This document shows, piece after piece, positions 4,033 through 9,964 of a stretch of 37,705 nt of DNA. Every line of letters begins with the position of its first letter. Within the stretch, counting starts at the first letter, position 1. The DNA lies in assembly GCA_937870985.1 (NCBI GenBank), contig CALMXF010000045.1, forward strand, positions 1 through 37,705, read 5' to 3'. This DNA comes from an uncultured Chloroflexota bacterium. GTDB taxonomy: Bacteria; Chloroflexota; Chloroflexia; Thermomicrobiales; CFX8. A program made the position numbers and the translations under genes. The notes under the pieces were generated by a model, which saw only the letters and a list, made by a program, of their open reading frames with translations, was not told the DNA's origin and did no database searches.

Positions 4033-5808
4033 ATGTCCTCGATATCGAACGAACCACGCTTGATACGACCATACGGCGGCCAGCTCGTCGATCTGATTGC
4101 GACCGGCGACGCGGCTGACGAGCTCCGCGCACGCGCGAGAGAGATCCCCTCGATTCAGATCTCGGAGCGAACGGCGTGCGACCTGGAGATGCTCGCGATT
4201 GGCGCGTTCTCGCCACTGGATCGATTCATGAACGCGGGGGACCACGCGCGAGTCCTCGATGAGATGCGGCTGGCCGATGGGACGCTGTTTCCGATGCCGC
4301 TGATTCTGCCCGTCGAGCCATCGGACGCGATCCGTCAGGGCCGCGATGTTGCGCTGCGAAGCGCAAAGAACGAGTTGCTCGGAATCATGACCATCGACGA
4401 AGTGTTCGCGTGGGATGCCGACGAGGTGTCGGACAAGGTGTTCGGGACACGCGATCCTCGCCATCCGCTCGTTTCCGAGATGCGGCGTTGGGGCCCACTG
4501 GCAATCAGCGGCCCGCTCAAGGTCCTGCAGCTTCCAGCCCATTACGATTTCCGCGACTTGCGACTGACTCCCGCCGAGGTGCGCGCGCGGCTGGATGCGA
4601 TCGGCCGGCAAAATGTCGTCGCATTTCAAACACGCAATCCGCTCCATCGCGTCCACGAAGAGCTGACCCGGCGCGCCGCTGAGGCGATCGACGGGGTGCT
4701 GTTGCTCCATCCGTCAGTCGGAATGACCAAGCCGGGCGATGTCGACCACTACACACGGGTTCGCACATACGCCGCGCTGGCCGAGCGTCACTACGAGCCA
4801 GGTCGCATCCTCCTCTCCCTGTTGCCGCTGGCGATGCGCATGGGCGGACCACGCGAGGCGCTCTGGCACACGATCATCCGCCGCAATTACGGCGCGAATC
4901 ACTTCATCGTCGGCCGGGATCACGCGAGTCCGGGCAATGACTCGAATGGCCGCCCATTTTATGGACCATACGACGCCCAGGAGTTGGTGTCCCGGCACAG
5001 CGCCGAAGTGGGCGTGACGGTGGTGCCGTTCAGCGAGCTCGTCTATCTGCCGGACGAACAACGGTACGAGGAGGTATCACGCATTCCGGAAGGGACGCGG
5101 ACTGCCAAGATCTCCGGCACCCAGGTGCGCGAAGAGTTCCTGAATCTCGGGCGCAAGCTGCCGGCATGGTTCAGCCGGCCGGAAGTAGCCGACATTCTGG
5201 CCGAGACGTATCCACCACGCCATCGTCAGGGCGCTTGCATCTGGTTCACCGGTCTGAGTGGCGCTGGAAAGTCGACGACCGCCGAGGTGTTGACCGTGCT
5301 GCTGCTGGAACGAGGCCGGCAAGTGACAGTGCTCGATGGAGATGTCGTGCGGACTCACCTGTCGAAGGGGCTCGGCTTCAGCAAAGAGGATCGCGAGACA
5401 AACGTCCGGCGCATCGGATTCGTGGCAGGGGAGATTGTTCGCCACGGGGGCGTCGTGATCTGTGCCGCCATCAGCCCCTACCTCGCCACTCGCGATGAGG
5501 TCCGCGAGATGATCGGCGCGGACCACTTCGTCGAAGTGTTTGTCGACACGCCGCTGGATATCTGCGAAGCGCGCGATTCAAAGGGTCTCTACGCCAAGGC
5601 GCGGCGAGGAGAGATTTCTGATTTCACCGGCATAGACGATCCATACGAACCGCCCGTCACGCCTGAAATCACGCTCGATACCGTCACAAGCACACCCGAA
5701 GAGAATGCAAAACGCATCGTTGCGCACCTTGTTGCGCAGGGGTTCGTTCGGTCCGACGAAGGTTGGGTCACCGAGATCGGCGCCCCCACAGCTGCCCGGT
5801 CCGTTTGA
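4033..5808 (+). CDS. sat-cysC: Bifunctional sulfate adenylyltransferase / adenylylsulfate kinase
   Basis: This 591-residue fusion makes APS from sulfate and ATP and then phosphorylates it to PAPS. The ATP sulfurylase part (about residues 1-390) carries QTRNPLHRVH at 199-208 with the HxxH nucleotide site, GRDHASPG near 294-301, and the SGTQVREEF/LPAWFSRPE segment typical of the family end. The APS kinase part (about 400-575) has the P-loop GLSGAGKS at 407-414 and the DGDVVRTHLSKGLGFS substrate region. Length fits known bacterial fusions. GGAGGGAG precedes the ATG. No other sulfate-reduction gene is adjacent, so the product could serve assimilation or sulfotransferases. Confidence 0.93.
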   Translation: MSSISNEPRLIRPYGGQLVDLIATGDAADELRARAREIPSIQISERTACDLEMLAIGAFSPLDRFMNAGDHARVLDEMRLADGTLFPMPLILPVEPSDAIRQGRDVALRSAKNELLGIMTIDEVFAWDADEVSDKVFGTRDPRHPLVSEMRRWGPLAISGPLKVLQLPAHYDFRDLRLTPAEVRARLDAIGRQNVVAFQTRNPLHRVHEELTRRAAEAIDGVLLLHPSVGMTKPGDVDHYTRVRTYAALAERHYEPGRILLSLLPLAMRMGGPREALWHTIIRRNYGANHFIVGRDHASPGNDSNGRPFYGPYDAQELVSRHSAEVGVTVVPFSELVYLPDEQRYEEVSRIPEGTRTAKISGTQVREEFLNLGRKLPAWFSRPEVADILAETYPPRHRQGACIWFTGLSGAGKSTTAEVLTVLLLERGRQVTVLDGDVVRTHLSKGLGFSKEDRETNVRRIGFVAGEIVRHGGVVICAAISPYLATRDEVREMIGADHFVEVFVDTPLDICEARDSKGLYAKARRGEISDFTGIDDPYEPPVTPEITLDTVTSTPEENAKRIVAHLVAQGFVRSDEGWVTEIGAPTAARSV

Positions 5809-5826
5809 CTTACCACCGGCGACCGG

Positions 5827-7506
5827 TCAGCGCTTTTTCTGGCGCTGACCGGTCACTGGTTGATGCGTCAACACAGCGCCACGCCCCCGATGCGTGTCGT
5901 AGTAGGTGAAGTTCCCGGGATATTCCCGAACAAGCCCGCCGTCGAGCTCGATAATGCGATTGCAGATCCGATCGAGAAAGTACCGATCGTGCGAAATCGT
6001 GAGGATCGTCCCGCCGAAATCGAGCAACGCGGCCTCGAGCTCCTCGATTGATGGCAGATCGAGATTGTTGGTTGGCTCGTCGAGCAGCAGGAAGTTGGCG
6101 CCACGGAGGATCAGCAGCGCGATCTGCAACCGGCTGCGTTCACCACCACTGAGCTTCCCGACCTGGGTCAGCGCGTCTTCGCGAGTGAACAACAACCCGA
6201 CGAGAAAGCCAATGGCCGACTGCTCGGTCATCGCCCGCGCCGAACGCACGAGCTCCAGCGGCGTGCGAGTCGGCTCCAGCGTCTCCTGTTCCTGCGCATA
6301 GTAGCCCGTCACAATCGACGGCCCGATCCGCACACGTCCGGTGGTCGCGGGTTCGTCCCCAAGGACAAGCCGGAAGAGCGTCGTCTTGCCCGCTCCGTTG
6401 TCGCCGACGATCCCGACGCGCTCACCGTGCGTCAGCTCAAAGTCAAACGGTCGCAAGATCTCACGGTCGCCGTACGATTTCGAAAGCGCCTTCATCTCCA
6501 GGACAAGCGACGAGCCGCGGTCGGCAGAGAACTCAACGTCGATACGGCGACGGTCGATCACCGGGACGGGCTTTTCGGCGAGCTTCTCGCGTTCGATCTC
6601 GAGGATGCGCCAGCGATTGCCGGCGCGCGCGGCGAACTTGTGATTCTGCCGCGCCCATTGTGTCAGTTGTTCCGCGCTCGCCTTCAGCTTCTTCAGCTCG
6701 CGTTGGTGAAGCTCGTATAGTTGGGCGTCGCGCTCCAGACGCTCCCGCTTCTGCGTAGTGAACCGACTGTAGTTGCCCGCGTATTTCGATACCCGTCCAT
6801 CTTCCAGCTCGACGATACTGGTTGCGACGCGATCGATGAAATAGCGGTCATGCGAGATGATGACCGTCCCACCCTTGCGACCGGCGAGATAGCTCTCGAG
6901 CCACGTCTTCGCGTTCGCATCGAGGTGGTTGTCGGGTTCGTCAAGCAGCAGCAGATCCGGTTCTTCAAGCAGACATTGTGCCAACCCGACGATGCGCTTT
7001 TCGCCCCCACTCAGCGTCTCGATCGACAGATCCCAACGGTCGTCGGGCAAGCCAAGGGCGCTGAGCGTCTGCTCGACGCGCGCGCCAACCGGCATGCCCG
7101 AAACAGCGTCGGCCCGCTCGATCAGCTCAGCATGTTCGACGAGCACTGCCTCCAGCTCAGCATCGGACAGATCCTCCCCCATGCGCCGCTCAAGCTCGTG
7201 GAGTCGTTCGTCGAGCGCGGCCGCGTCGCCGCTCGCCAGTGCTACGACATCTCGGACGGTATGACCCGGGGTGAACATCGGCTGCTGCGGAAGGTATCCT
7301 GTGCGCAACCCTCGCTGGCGGGCGATCGAGCCTGTGGTGGGCTGAACCTCGCCGGTAAGTAGCCGCAACAGCGTGCTCTTGCCAGCGCCGTTCCCCCCGA
7401 CGAGGGCGACGCGCTCGTCGTCGCGTACCTCGAAGGTCAACTCCTCGAACACCAGGTGACCACCATAGATCACGCCGACTTCGCTCGCCTGCGCCAGGAT
7501 AGCCAC
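5827..7506 (-). CDS. ABC-F family ATPase (duplicated ABC domains, ribosome-associated type)
   Basis: The protein has two ABC ATPase domains and no membrane segments, as in the ABC-F family that acts on the ribosome (translation factors and antibiotic-protection proteins). Counted from the chosen GTG at 7506 it has 559 residues. Domain 1 has Walker A GGNGAGKS (37-44), signature LSGGEK (165-170) and DEPDNHLD (189-196), with Asp where most relatives have Thr. Domain 2 has Walker A GDNGAGKT (368-375), LSGGERS (452-458) and DEPTNNLD. A charged helical linker (about 240-330) separates them. The frame extends to a GTG at 7620, but that extension is low complexity, and GGGAAG lies ten bases before 7506. 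The subfamily cannot be told. The upstream leader (two short ORFs plus terminator) suggests attenuation control. Confidence 0.9.
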   Translation of the reverse strand: MAILAQASEVGVIYGGHLVFEELTFEVRDDERVALVGGNGAGKSTLLRLLTGEVQPTTGSIARQRGLRTGYLPQQPMFTPGHTVRDVVALASGDAAALDERLHELERRMGEDLSDAELEAVLVEHAELIERADAVSGMPVGARVEQTLSALGLPDDRWDLSIETLSGGEKRIVGLAQCLLEEPDLLLLDEPDNHLDANAKTWLESYLAGRKGGTVIISHDRYFIDRVATSIVELEDGRVSKYAGNYSRFTTQKRERLERDAQLYELHQRELKKLKASAEQLTQWARQNHKFAARAGNRWRILEIEREKLAEKPVPVIDRRRIDVEFSADRGSSLVLEMKALSKSYGDREILRPFDFELTHGERVGIVGDNGAGKTTLFRLVLGDEPATTGRVRIGPSIVTGYYAQEQETLEPTRTPLELVRSARAMTEQSAIGFLVGLLFTREDALTQVGKLSGGERSRLQIALLILRGANFLLLDEPTNNLDLPSIEELEAALLDFGGTILTISHDRYFLDRICNRIIELDGGLVREYPGNFTYYDTHRGRGAVLTHQPVTGQRQKKR

Positions 7507-7652
7507 AATGCCCACGCTTCCCAACAATGCCTGATCAACAGAACGGCCGGCCCTCGCGCTGGCGCTTGATGAGCGTAACACGGCAGGCAGACGAGACGAC
7601 TGGCTCGGGCGCGAATTCACCCGCCACGGCCGATCGACGAGGATCTCGAAAC

Positions 7653-7692
7653 AACGACCCCCGGCGCCAATTGCTGGACGCCGGGGGTCGTT
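7653..7692 (-). terminator. Strong intrinsic terminator between the short ORFs and the ABC-F gene
   Basis: A perfect 14-bp, GC-rich stem (7679-7692 with 7653-7666) has a 12-nt loop. Read on the minus strand it ends in TTGTTT. It lies after the second small ORF and about 150 bases before the ABC-F start. A near copy of its 5' arm (12 nt, one mismatch that still allows G-U pairing) lies at 7705-7716 and could compete for the 3' arm. Confidence 0.75.
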
Positions 7693-7719
7693 TGGGTCTG
7701 AGCGCGCCGGGGATCGGGG

Positions 7720-7830
7720 TTAGCGAGCCTTGCGCAGGATGGCGAGCCAGTCGCGCTTGCCTCGGGCACGGTTGAGCTCGGACTGCTTGTGTTCGACCAT
7801 TCGCTCCAGCAGGTAGTTGTCCATGTTCAT
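7720..7830 (-). CDS. Small basic protein, 34-36 residues, second gene of a short-ORF pair
   Basis: The frame ATG(7830)...TAA encodes 36 residues. GAGGAG directly abuts that ATG and sits six bases before a second ATG (7824), so a 34-residue start at 7824 is more likely. The product begins MDNYLLERMVEHKQ and continues as a charged amphipathic helix rich in Arg/Lys, ending RDWLAILRKAR. I recognise no family. It lies 18 bases after the upstream small ORF and 28 bases before the terminator hairpin, under the same strong promoter. It may be a functional microprotein, or a leader peptide controlling the ABC-F gene. Confidence 0.65.
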   Translation of the reverse strand: MNMDNYLLERMVEHKQSELNRARGKRDWLAILRKAR

Positions 7831-7848
7831 CTCCTCGTCTTCTCGTTA

Positions 7849-7980
7849 CTAGCGCATCGTCGGGACGTGCGGATCGGCGGCTCGTTGCAGATAACTGCCT
7901 GCCGTCGCCGGAGCCGGCAGATAGTCTGAATCCCATAGAGATTCGGACCGTATCGTCGTAGGCTTTCGGTAGACAATCAC
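7849..7980 (-). CDS. Small protein or leader peptide of 43 residues, first gene of a short-ORF pair
   Basis: A GTG start at 7980 is preceded by a perfect GGAGG with five-base spacing (7986-7990). The frame runs 43 codons to TAG. The product begins VIVYRKPTTIRSESLW and is rich in Arg, Ser, Thr and Pro. It has no hydrophobic segment and matches no family I know. The consensus promoter lies 23 bases upstream of the start codon. An ideal promoter, an ideal ribosome binding site and an intact short frame argue that it is translated. Its function may lie in the act of translation rather than in the peptide. Confidence 0.6.
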   Translation of the reverse strand: MIVYRKPTTIRSESLWDSDYLPAPATAGSYLQRAADPHVPTMR

Positions 7981-8002
7981 TAGCGCCTCCTATCTAGACC
8001 AG

Positions 8003-8031
8003 ATCATACGATTACAGGAAGTGATTGTCAA
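8003..8031 (-). promoter_or_regulatory. Consensus housekeeping promoter of the short-ORF / ABC-F leader
   Basis: On the minus strand TTGACA (8026-8031) and TATGAT (8003-8008) are separated by exactly 17 nt, matching 11 of 12 consensus bases. The start is predicted near 7996, with the GGAGG of the first small ORF right after it. It is the best promoter in the window. Confidence 0.85.
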
Positions 8032-8197
8032 CTGTTTCTTATGATTCAGTTCAAGATTGGGAACCATCTGCTGGGAATCAGTCCGAATCACGGCTGACAG
8101 CGGCCAATTCGTCATGCGTCGCCCGGTATCGACGGGTTACCATTACGCCGGCTGGCGCGGCCCACCCGCCTGAAGCACCCGGAGGTAAGCGCAGACC

Positions 8198-9964
8198 GTG
8201 CTTCTCGAGCTCACGATCAACAATCTGGCGGTCATTCGCGAGACGCGAATCGCGTTCGGTCCAGGGCTGAATGTGCTGACTGGCGAAACCGGCGCCGGCA
8301 AGTCGATGGTGATCGATGCGCTCGGCGCGGTGCTCGGCGCGCGCGCTTCCGCCGAACTCGTTCGCACTGGGACCAGTAGCGCCCGGGTCGAGGCTATCTT
8401 CGACATCTCCGAGGACATCGCGCGCGATCGGATCCTTGCCACCCTTGCCGAGGCCGGCATCGATCAGGCCCCTGACGAGCCGCTGATCCTCAGCCGCGAT
8501 ATCAGCGCCGCCGGCCGCTCAACAGCGCGAATCGCCAACCGGGCTGTCACCGCTGGCCTTCTGACGCGCATCGGCGAGCTCCTGGTCGATATCCACGGCC
8601 AAAGCGATCACCTGTCGCTCTTACGCCCGGCTATCCAGCTGGATCTTCTCGATCACTTCACCGGGACCTCCGAGCTCCGCGCCGAGGTCGCCTCTGGCGT
8701 CACAAGCTGGAGTCAGCTACGTAGCCGCATTCGCGACTTCGACCAGGAACAGCGCCGAACAGCGCAGCGACTCGACCTGCTTCGGTATCAGGCAGAGGAG
8801 CTGTCGGCGGCCAACGTCCAGCCAGGCGAGGACGATACTCTCCAGCAGGAGCGCGCCCGCCTCGCCAACGCCGAACGCCTGCTCCGCGCATCCGCGGACG
8901 CACAGGCAGCGCTGACAGGTGACTCGTCCGTTGGTGACAACGCCGGCGCGATCGACCGTCTTCGCGCGGCGATCCGGGTAATCAGCGACATCGCCACGCT
9001 CGATATCGCGTTCGAGTCAACCCTCACACGCGCGAACGACGCCATCTTTGCGCTAGAAGATGTTGCCGCTGAGGTTCGAGATTATGCGGAGCGTGTCGAG
9101 CTCGACCCACGGCGTCTCGAGGCAGTCGAGGAGAGACTCGAGCTACTCCGCCTGCTGAAGCGGAAGTACGGGCCGACGCTTGCGGACGCGCTCATCTACA
9201 TGGGAGAAATCGCCAGAGAGCTTGCCAGCATCGAATCCGACGAGCACGATATCGACGCGCTGCGAGCCGACGAGGCGAACCTGCGTCAGCGACTGGGAGA
9301 CACGGCCGCCCGGCTCTCCTCCATCCGTCGCGCGGGCGCTGTGGAGCTCGCTCGTTCGGTGGAGCAATCGATTCGGGACCTGCAGATGGGGAGCGCGATC
9401 TTCGAGGTGCGCTTCGAGACGCTACCGGACGACGACGGGGTGCCTCTGGCCGACGGTACGCGCGTCGCGATCAACCACACCGGCGCCGATCGCATCACGT
9501 TCTACCTCGCCACAAACAGAGGCGAAACGCTCCGTCCTCTGGCGCGAGTTGCTTCTGGCGGGGAGACTGCGCGGCTGATGCTCGCGCTGAAATCGATCCT
9601 CGCGACTGCCGATGACACGCCGGTGCTGGTGTTCGACGAGGTGGACGTCGGGGTCGGCGGACGCAGCGGCCAGGTCGTCGGCGAGAAGCTCTGGAGACTC
9701 AGCGATCGCCATCAGGTGATCGTGATCTCCCATCTGCCCCAGATCGCTGCGTTCGCCGACCACCACATCATCTTGATAAAGCAAGAGGAAGAGGACAGGA
9801 CAGTGACCACCGCAATCACCGTTTCCGGCGACGCTCGCATCGATGAGGTCGCCGCAATGCTCGACGGGTTGCCGATCACGTCCGAATCACGCGCCAGCGC
9901 GAACGCGCTCCTTCAGCGAGCAGCAGGCTGGAAGACCGCGGATCGGTCTGCCGCGACGCGCTGA
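8198..9964 (+). CDS. recN: DNA repair protein RecN
   Basis: An SMC-like ATPase of 588 residues that acts in double-strand break repair. Walker A GETGAGKS lies at residues 29-36, followed by a long coiled-coil middle rich in Glu/Arg/Leu. ASGGETARLMLA is the signature motif, and Walker B VLVFDEVDVGVGG is at about 476-488, then VISHLPQIAAFADHH. Length and order fit RecN. GTG is the start, with GGAGGT eleven bases upstream. It is divergent from the short-ORF promoter at 8003-8031. Confidence 0.95.
   Translation: MLLELTINNLAVIRETRIAFGPGLNVLTGETGAGKSMVIDALGAVLGARASAELVRTGTSSARVEAIFDISEDIARDRILATLAEAGIDQAPDEPLILSRDISAAGRSTARIANRAVTAGLLTRIGELLVDIHGQSDHLSLLRPAIQLDLLDHFTGTSELRAEVASGVTSWSQLRSRIRDFDQEQRRTAQRLDLLRYQAEELSAANVQPGEDDTLQQERARLANAERLLRASADAQAALTGDSSVGDNAGAIDRLRAAIRVISDIATLDIAFESTLTRANDAIFALEDVAAEVRDYAERVELDPRRLEAVEERLELLRLLKRKYGPTLADALIYMGEIARELASIESDEHDIDALRADEANLRQRLGDTAARLSSIRRAGAVELARSVEQSIRDLQMGSAIFEVRFETLPDDDGVPLADGTRVAINHTGADRITFYLATNRGETLRPLARVASGGETARLMLALKSILATADDTPVLVFDEVDVGVGGRSGQVVGEKLWRLSDRHQVIVISHLPQIAAFADHHIILIKQEEEDRTVTTAITVSGDARIDEVAAMLDGLPITSESRASANALLQRAAGWKTADRSAATR

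Follow-up and report, generated by a model that had tools for sequence, protein, structure and literature searches.

An attenuator-like layout upstream of a Thermomicrobiales ABC-F gene probably reflects an abutting small-protein gene, and orthologous Chloroflexota genes carry a candidate leader family

Is an ABC-F gene of the Thermomicrobiales controlled by ribosomes that translate short ORFs in front of it? The question is raised by the window, a stretch of 37,705 nucleotides (37.7 kb) from a Thermomicrobiales MAG (G000, 89% complete). Its minus strand carries a promoter, two short ORFs, a hairpin, and an ABC-F start, which the initial annotation read as a candidate ribosome-mediated attenuator; every element it listed was located on that strand (Table 1). 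ABC-F attenuators have been reported in Firmicutes (PMC9226507, PMC10314930). In the vmlR leader of Bacillus subtilis, antibiotic stalling on a uORF favors an antiterminator (PMC9226507), and the window has in common with it a promoter, a uORF, and an intrinsic terminator before an ABC-F gene. By its layout it can also be likened to the msrD leader of streptococci, where a short leader peptide is encoded ahead of an ABC-F gene that is subject to attenuation (PMC10314930).

Table 1. Positions of the features in the window, and the reference example and members of an Anaerolineae leader type
Feature	Position	Strand	Details
Sigma-70-type promoter, TTGACA-17-TATGAT	8003..8031	-	TTGACA 8031-8026, TATGAT 8008-8003
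ORF1	7849..7980	-	GTG 7980 to TAG 7849, 43 codons, behind GGAGG
ORF2	7720..7830	-	ATG 7830 (36 codons) or 7824 (34), TAA 7720, behind GAGGAG
Hairpin, intrinsic-terminator-like	7653..7692	-	Perfect 14-bp stem, arms AACGACCCCCGGCG / CGCCGGGGGTCGTT
Weak candidate ABC-F promoter	7572..7580	-	Extended -10 TGTTACGCT, no clear -35
ABC-F ATPase gene	5827..7506	-	GTG 7506 start, agrees with same-genus relative L002
recN-like gene, divergent	8198..9964	+	Bounds the region upstream
Near-leaderless uORF and strong terminator	L097:2813-2965		Upstream of ABC-F, Anaerolineae
Leaders of the L097 type			L076, L085, L099, L107, L111, L112, L114, L117, L118, L121, L125, L128, L131, L164-L170, L194, L197-L201, L203

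The promoter agrees with the consensus at 11 of 12 positions and is the sole match within positions 5000-9000. Both ORFs between it and the terminator are preceded by ribosome-binding sites. Across both strands of the entire window, no second strong terminator-like hairpin was found; the core of this one has a folding energy of -32.1 kcal/mol, against -15.1 for shuffles, and its tail is moderate (TTGTTTCGAG 3' of the CGACC...GGTCG core). The plus-strand tail of the same hairpin (7655-7690) also contains T residues (TTTGGGTCT), and the hairpin may terminate in both directions. Also on the plus strand, and convergent with the ABC-F gene, a long ORF at 4033-5808 reads, from its translation, as a fusion of a sulfate adenylyltransferase with an adenylylsulfate kinase.

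The ABC-F protein of the window passes only the generic NCBIfam ribo_prot_ABC_F model (ribosomal-protection-like ABC-F). It comes close to the EttA model, yet stays below its cut-off, and falls far below the cut-off of each of the Msr, Vga, Lsa, OptrA, Sal, and TlrC/CarA models. The closest solved chains in the PDB are those of EttA, and the nearest relatives of the gene are Thermomicrobiales records. A resistance role is not indicated by these matches, and in the NCBIfam and PDB comparisons the protein is nearer to EttA than to the resistance ABC-Fs, unlike in the msrD case.

A relative of the same genus (g1), locus L002 in genome G001, encodes an ABC-F protein 75% identical to that of the window. 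Gene order is common to the two (recN, promoter, ORF2, hairpin, ABC-F), and L002 is the only other place where the recN-like gene neighbors ABC-F. L002 retains the promoter in the form TTGACA-17-TATAGT. The ORF2 copies of the two loci are 65% identical, with a dN of 0.20, a dS of 0.93, and a dN/dS of about 0.22, and 14 of their 26 differences fall at third positions; ORF2 is under purifying selection between the two g1 species. The L002 hairpin occupies the same place with a different sequence and without a T-run (CATTCGTGTC). The coding status of ORF1 is doubtful, because it has no similarity to any leader frame of L002 (best score 19, shuffle mean 23, p 0.93). L002 does have a 42-codon frame at the place of ORF1; its sequence is unrelated, and such a frame would not be surprising at this base composition. 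The exact arrangement occurs in two genomes only. Of the leader that the initial annotation proposed to compare in related genomes, the promoter, ORF2, and the position of the hairpin recur in L002, and ORF1 and the T-run of the hairpin do not.

What decides between a leader and a gene in its own right, for the window, is whether homologues of the short ORF stand at unrelated loci. ORF2 belongs to a family found at 10 places in three Thermomicrobiales genomes (G000, G001, and G002), among them the unrelated places G000:C53, G001:C12, G001:C32, G002:C163, G002:C177, and G002:C367, the last with three copies in tandem. Family members have 33-36 amino acids and the consensus MDxYxxxxxVExxxxELxRxRGxRxWxxIFRK; M, L, R, G, and W do not vary in the alignment, and the window ORF2 matches the family profile across all 34 residues. 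Profile searches of 150 genomes of the class and 301 of the phylum gave no credible further members; weak matches of the profile in other genomes (E 0.006 to 0.05) were partial in coverage, lay mostly inside longer frames, and were rejected as chance. Neither ORF1 nor ORF2 has a match in Pfam or NCBIfam, and the PHROGs match of ORF2 is insignificant. We infer that ORF2 acts as a protein. In the tandem array (G002:C367:7099-7547; L037, L039, L041), the last of the three genes has an in-frame TAG.

The surroundings of the copies are varied. At L033, the copy is flanked by a divergent DUF983-like gene and a convergent acetyltransferase-like gene, and therefore cannot be the leader of any downstream gene; an 11-bp hairpin follows its stop. 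Elsewhere, the gene that comes after the copy is glgX-like, MMPL-like, beta-lactamase-like, or a membrane-protein gene, names that were read from the translations and not from a family search. At most copies, the stop is followed 15-45 nt later by a strong hairpin, whose tail is T-rich at L021 (the window), L034, and L037. The L038 hairpin lacks a T-run and lies only about 27 nt ahead of an MMPL-like gene in the same orientation. A riboswitch-like leader common to the copies was considered and not borne out, as a GGACAGG block alone recurs. At L023, L033, L034, L035, and L038, this block precedes the start of the ORF2-family gene by about 130-200 nt; it is absent from both ABC-F-linked copies and is possibly a common promoter or operator.

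We conclude that the window probably holds two abutting transcription units, one a small-protein gene (ORF2) that has a promoter and a terminator to itself, the other the ABC-F gene. The promoter at 8031-8003 would drive the leader and ORF2, and the hairpin (7692-7653) would end the ORF2 transcript; the ORF2 family itself has multiplied within two sister Thermomicrobiales genera (g1 and g2). ABC-F would have a promoter of its own within the 150 nt that separate it from the hairpin, or be fed by readthrough. Because hairpins stand after most ORF2 copies, the terminator in the window is most likely that of ORF2. The transcript boundaries and the ABC-F promoter are those that we infer from this arrangement. 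Between hairpin and ABC-F, the sole block colinear with L002 is CGTG[T/A]TACGCT (chance 0.04), which weakly supports a putative ABC-F promoter at that site, and other genomes of family f1 have no strong terminator before their ABC-F. Against separate units, ORF2 and a hairpin precede ABC-F in both g1 species, and distances of 100-200 nt from terminator to start are also seen in the probable true attenuators of the orthologues. The weakness of the promoter candidate, a repeat of the 5' arm described below, and the restriction of the exact arrangement to two genomes also count against them. A layout that looks like a textbook attenuator can, on the two-unit reading, come from a small-protein gene that adjoins an ABC-F gene.

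The mechanism first proposed, in which stalling on ORF1 or ORF2 blocks the 7692-7653 terminator and lets polymerase reach ABC-F, appears unlikely at this locus. It draws on the order of the elements, which is right for an attenuator (a promoter, then two ORFs that each have a Shine-Dalgarno sequence, then a strong terminator), and on the leaders with uORF and terminator that orthologous ABC-F genes have in the same order and phylum (see below). Against it, the hairpin of L002 lacks a T-run, ORF2 and hairpins are also found without an ABC-F gene, ORF1 matches no leader-uORF profile, and a scan of the window leader for pairing with the 5' arm of the terminator found no segment better than shuffles. 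Neither short ORF is specific to ABC-F as a leader, ORF1 being unconserved and ORF2 dispersed and freestanding elsewhere. With a dispersed ORF2 family, an unconserved ORF1, and no antiterminator found to the 5' arm, the window differs from the vmlR leader, and on these same points attenuation by uORF and terminator fits poorly here; the general idea gains strong support from different leaders on ABC-F orthologues elsewhere in Chloroflexota, the window's own order included. Around 7706, the window leader carries a sequence close to that of the 5' arm (CCCCGGCG), which is able to pair with the 3' arm (-26.4 kcal/mol, with 3% of shuffles as good), and expression of ABC-F by readthrough of the hairpin is possible. 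A further reading, which we judge improbable, places ORF2 and ABC-F in a single operon. The hairpin would there act, without sensing ribosomes, as a leaky terminator or stability element and so set how much small protein is made relative to ABC-F. The shared orientation, the order conserved in both g1 species, and the position of the L038 hairpin before its codirectional gene agree with a single operon; the strength of the window hairpin, unique of its kind in 37.7 kb, and the weak promoter candidate downstream of it do not.

Upstream regions were compared at 175 deduplicated orthologous ABC-F loci of Chloroflexota. A strong terminator lies at most 420 nt upstream in 49% of them, compared with 0-2% of shuffles and 1% inside genes. 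In many Anaerolineae, a uORF has its ATG about 7-9 nt past a TATAAT box (Table 1), a spacing which implies that the uORF start is leaderless or nearly so. The uORF has about 30-36 codons, its stop mostly 16-40 nt before the terminator, and the peptide consensus MIYxFxxGxxxLxIGVRGFIxAxPxRIAPVx (also MIYxF..GKSPLIIGVRGF....RIAPV-stop). In 15 of the 18 Anaerolineae genomes searched, its profile had a single strong match, which lay just upstream of ABC-F. Over 88 pairs from the 23 gap-free members, the median dN/dS was 0.28 and half of the differences were at third positions; the uORF is under purifying selection. About 40 orthologous loci match this profile, whereas the leaders of the window and L002 do not, and upstream of ABC-F in G000 the profile again found no match.

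The end of this uORF looks constrained as RNA, because its bases (GCG CCT G) show no variation, even synonymous, among the 23 gap-free members and are kept where a CGA to TGA change stops the uORF early (L093, L098). Its pairing is also better with the 5' arm of the terminator at the same locus than with the 5' arms found elsewhere (permutation p 0.0012, uncorrected for kinship), for example TGGTGCGC with GCGCACCA at L087 and CGCCTC with GAGGCG at L119. Antiterminator scans of single loci were for the most part no better than shuffles, the matched-versus-mismatched permutation alone being so, and for this reason the data suggest that the Anaerolineae leaders may contain an antiterminator formed by the uORF end. 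We lean, by a little, toward the view that an undescribed leader family controls ABC-F in much of Chloroflexota, in which the R-I-A-P end of the uORF lies over an antiterminator and the position of the ribosome at that end decides whether ABC-F is made. The window lineage would then have an unrelated small-protein gene in the place of the leader.

Five genomes of family f3 (L011-L014 and L140), from the window's own order, have a uORF, a GGGAGnAGTG element, and a terminator before ABC-F. These leaders sit about 180 nt upstream of the gene, and L013, L014, and L140 also show a promoter of the form TTGACG-18-TAGGAT or TACGAT. The terminator (CCTCCCTTCG...CGGAGGG-T-run, with a variant in L011) ends about 20-45 nt before the ABC-F start, and readthrough into ABC-F is likely, because this leaves little space for another promoter. 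Three of the five leaders encode a uORF with the sequence QFYLKATI...; in L011, the frame of the uORF differs past the GGGAGnAGTG element. A WEQC peptide motif was rejected as a conserved unit of these uORFs, since L140 has TGEQC, and it is the GGGAGnAGTG nucleotides rather than the tryptophan that look constrained. Pairing is possible between GGGAG and the CTCCC of the terminator, and folds of the leader up to the 3' arm show it in L012-L014. The window has neither an Anaerolineae-type nor an f3-type leader.

Rfam gave no credible match for the window leader, the ORF2 copies, the f3 leaders, or the Anaerolineae leaders, and a literature search of open-licence papers found ABC-F attenuators in Firmicutes and none for Chloroflexota. 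The Anaerolineae and f3 leaders with uORF and terminator are apparently undescribed. They bear a loose likeness to RAPP-type arrest peptides (PMC12992588), in that the related Chloroflexota uORFs have R-I-A-P or A-P-P at their ends, close to the stop; unlike those peptides, they have no exact RAPP or RGPP, and the downstream gene is ABC-F. The window itself has no such uORF. Two ABC-F proteins, YfmR and YkpA/YbiT, reportedly aid in resolving stalled ribosomes (PMC11381351). This suggests that an ABC-F of that kind could be its own regulator through a uORF with R-I-A-P or A-P-P at its end; if the Chloroflexota protein eases translation of difficult proline sequences, it would regulate itself. 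The leader family on the ABC-F orthologues is the part of these results worth following. A conserved leader with uORF and terminator on a largely uncharacterised ABC-F clade offers a direct handle on the role of the protein. The uORF end is the sequence that the ribosome likely reads when the switch is thrown, and the signal, be it an antibiotic, proline stalling, or amino-acid shortage, is therefore testable.

Two variants were seen among the orthologous leaders. In L093, L098, and L126, the uORF is shortened by a TGA at the conserved CGA codon, and the downstream ATCGCGCCTG bases are kept. A second leader group (L096, L103, L108, L116, L119, L130, L133, L134, and L174) has a recurring TTATGTAAA-like or TTATGTCAA motif, which sits between the uORF stop and the terminator.
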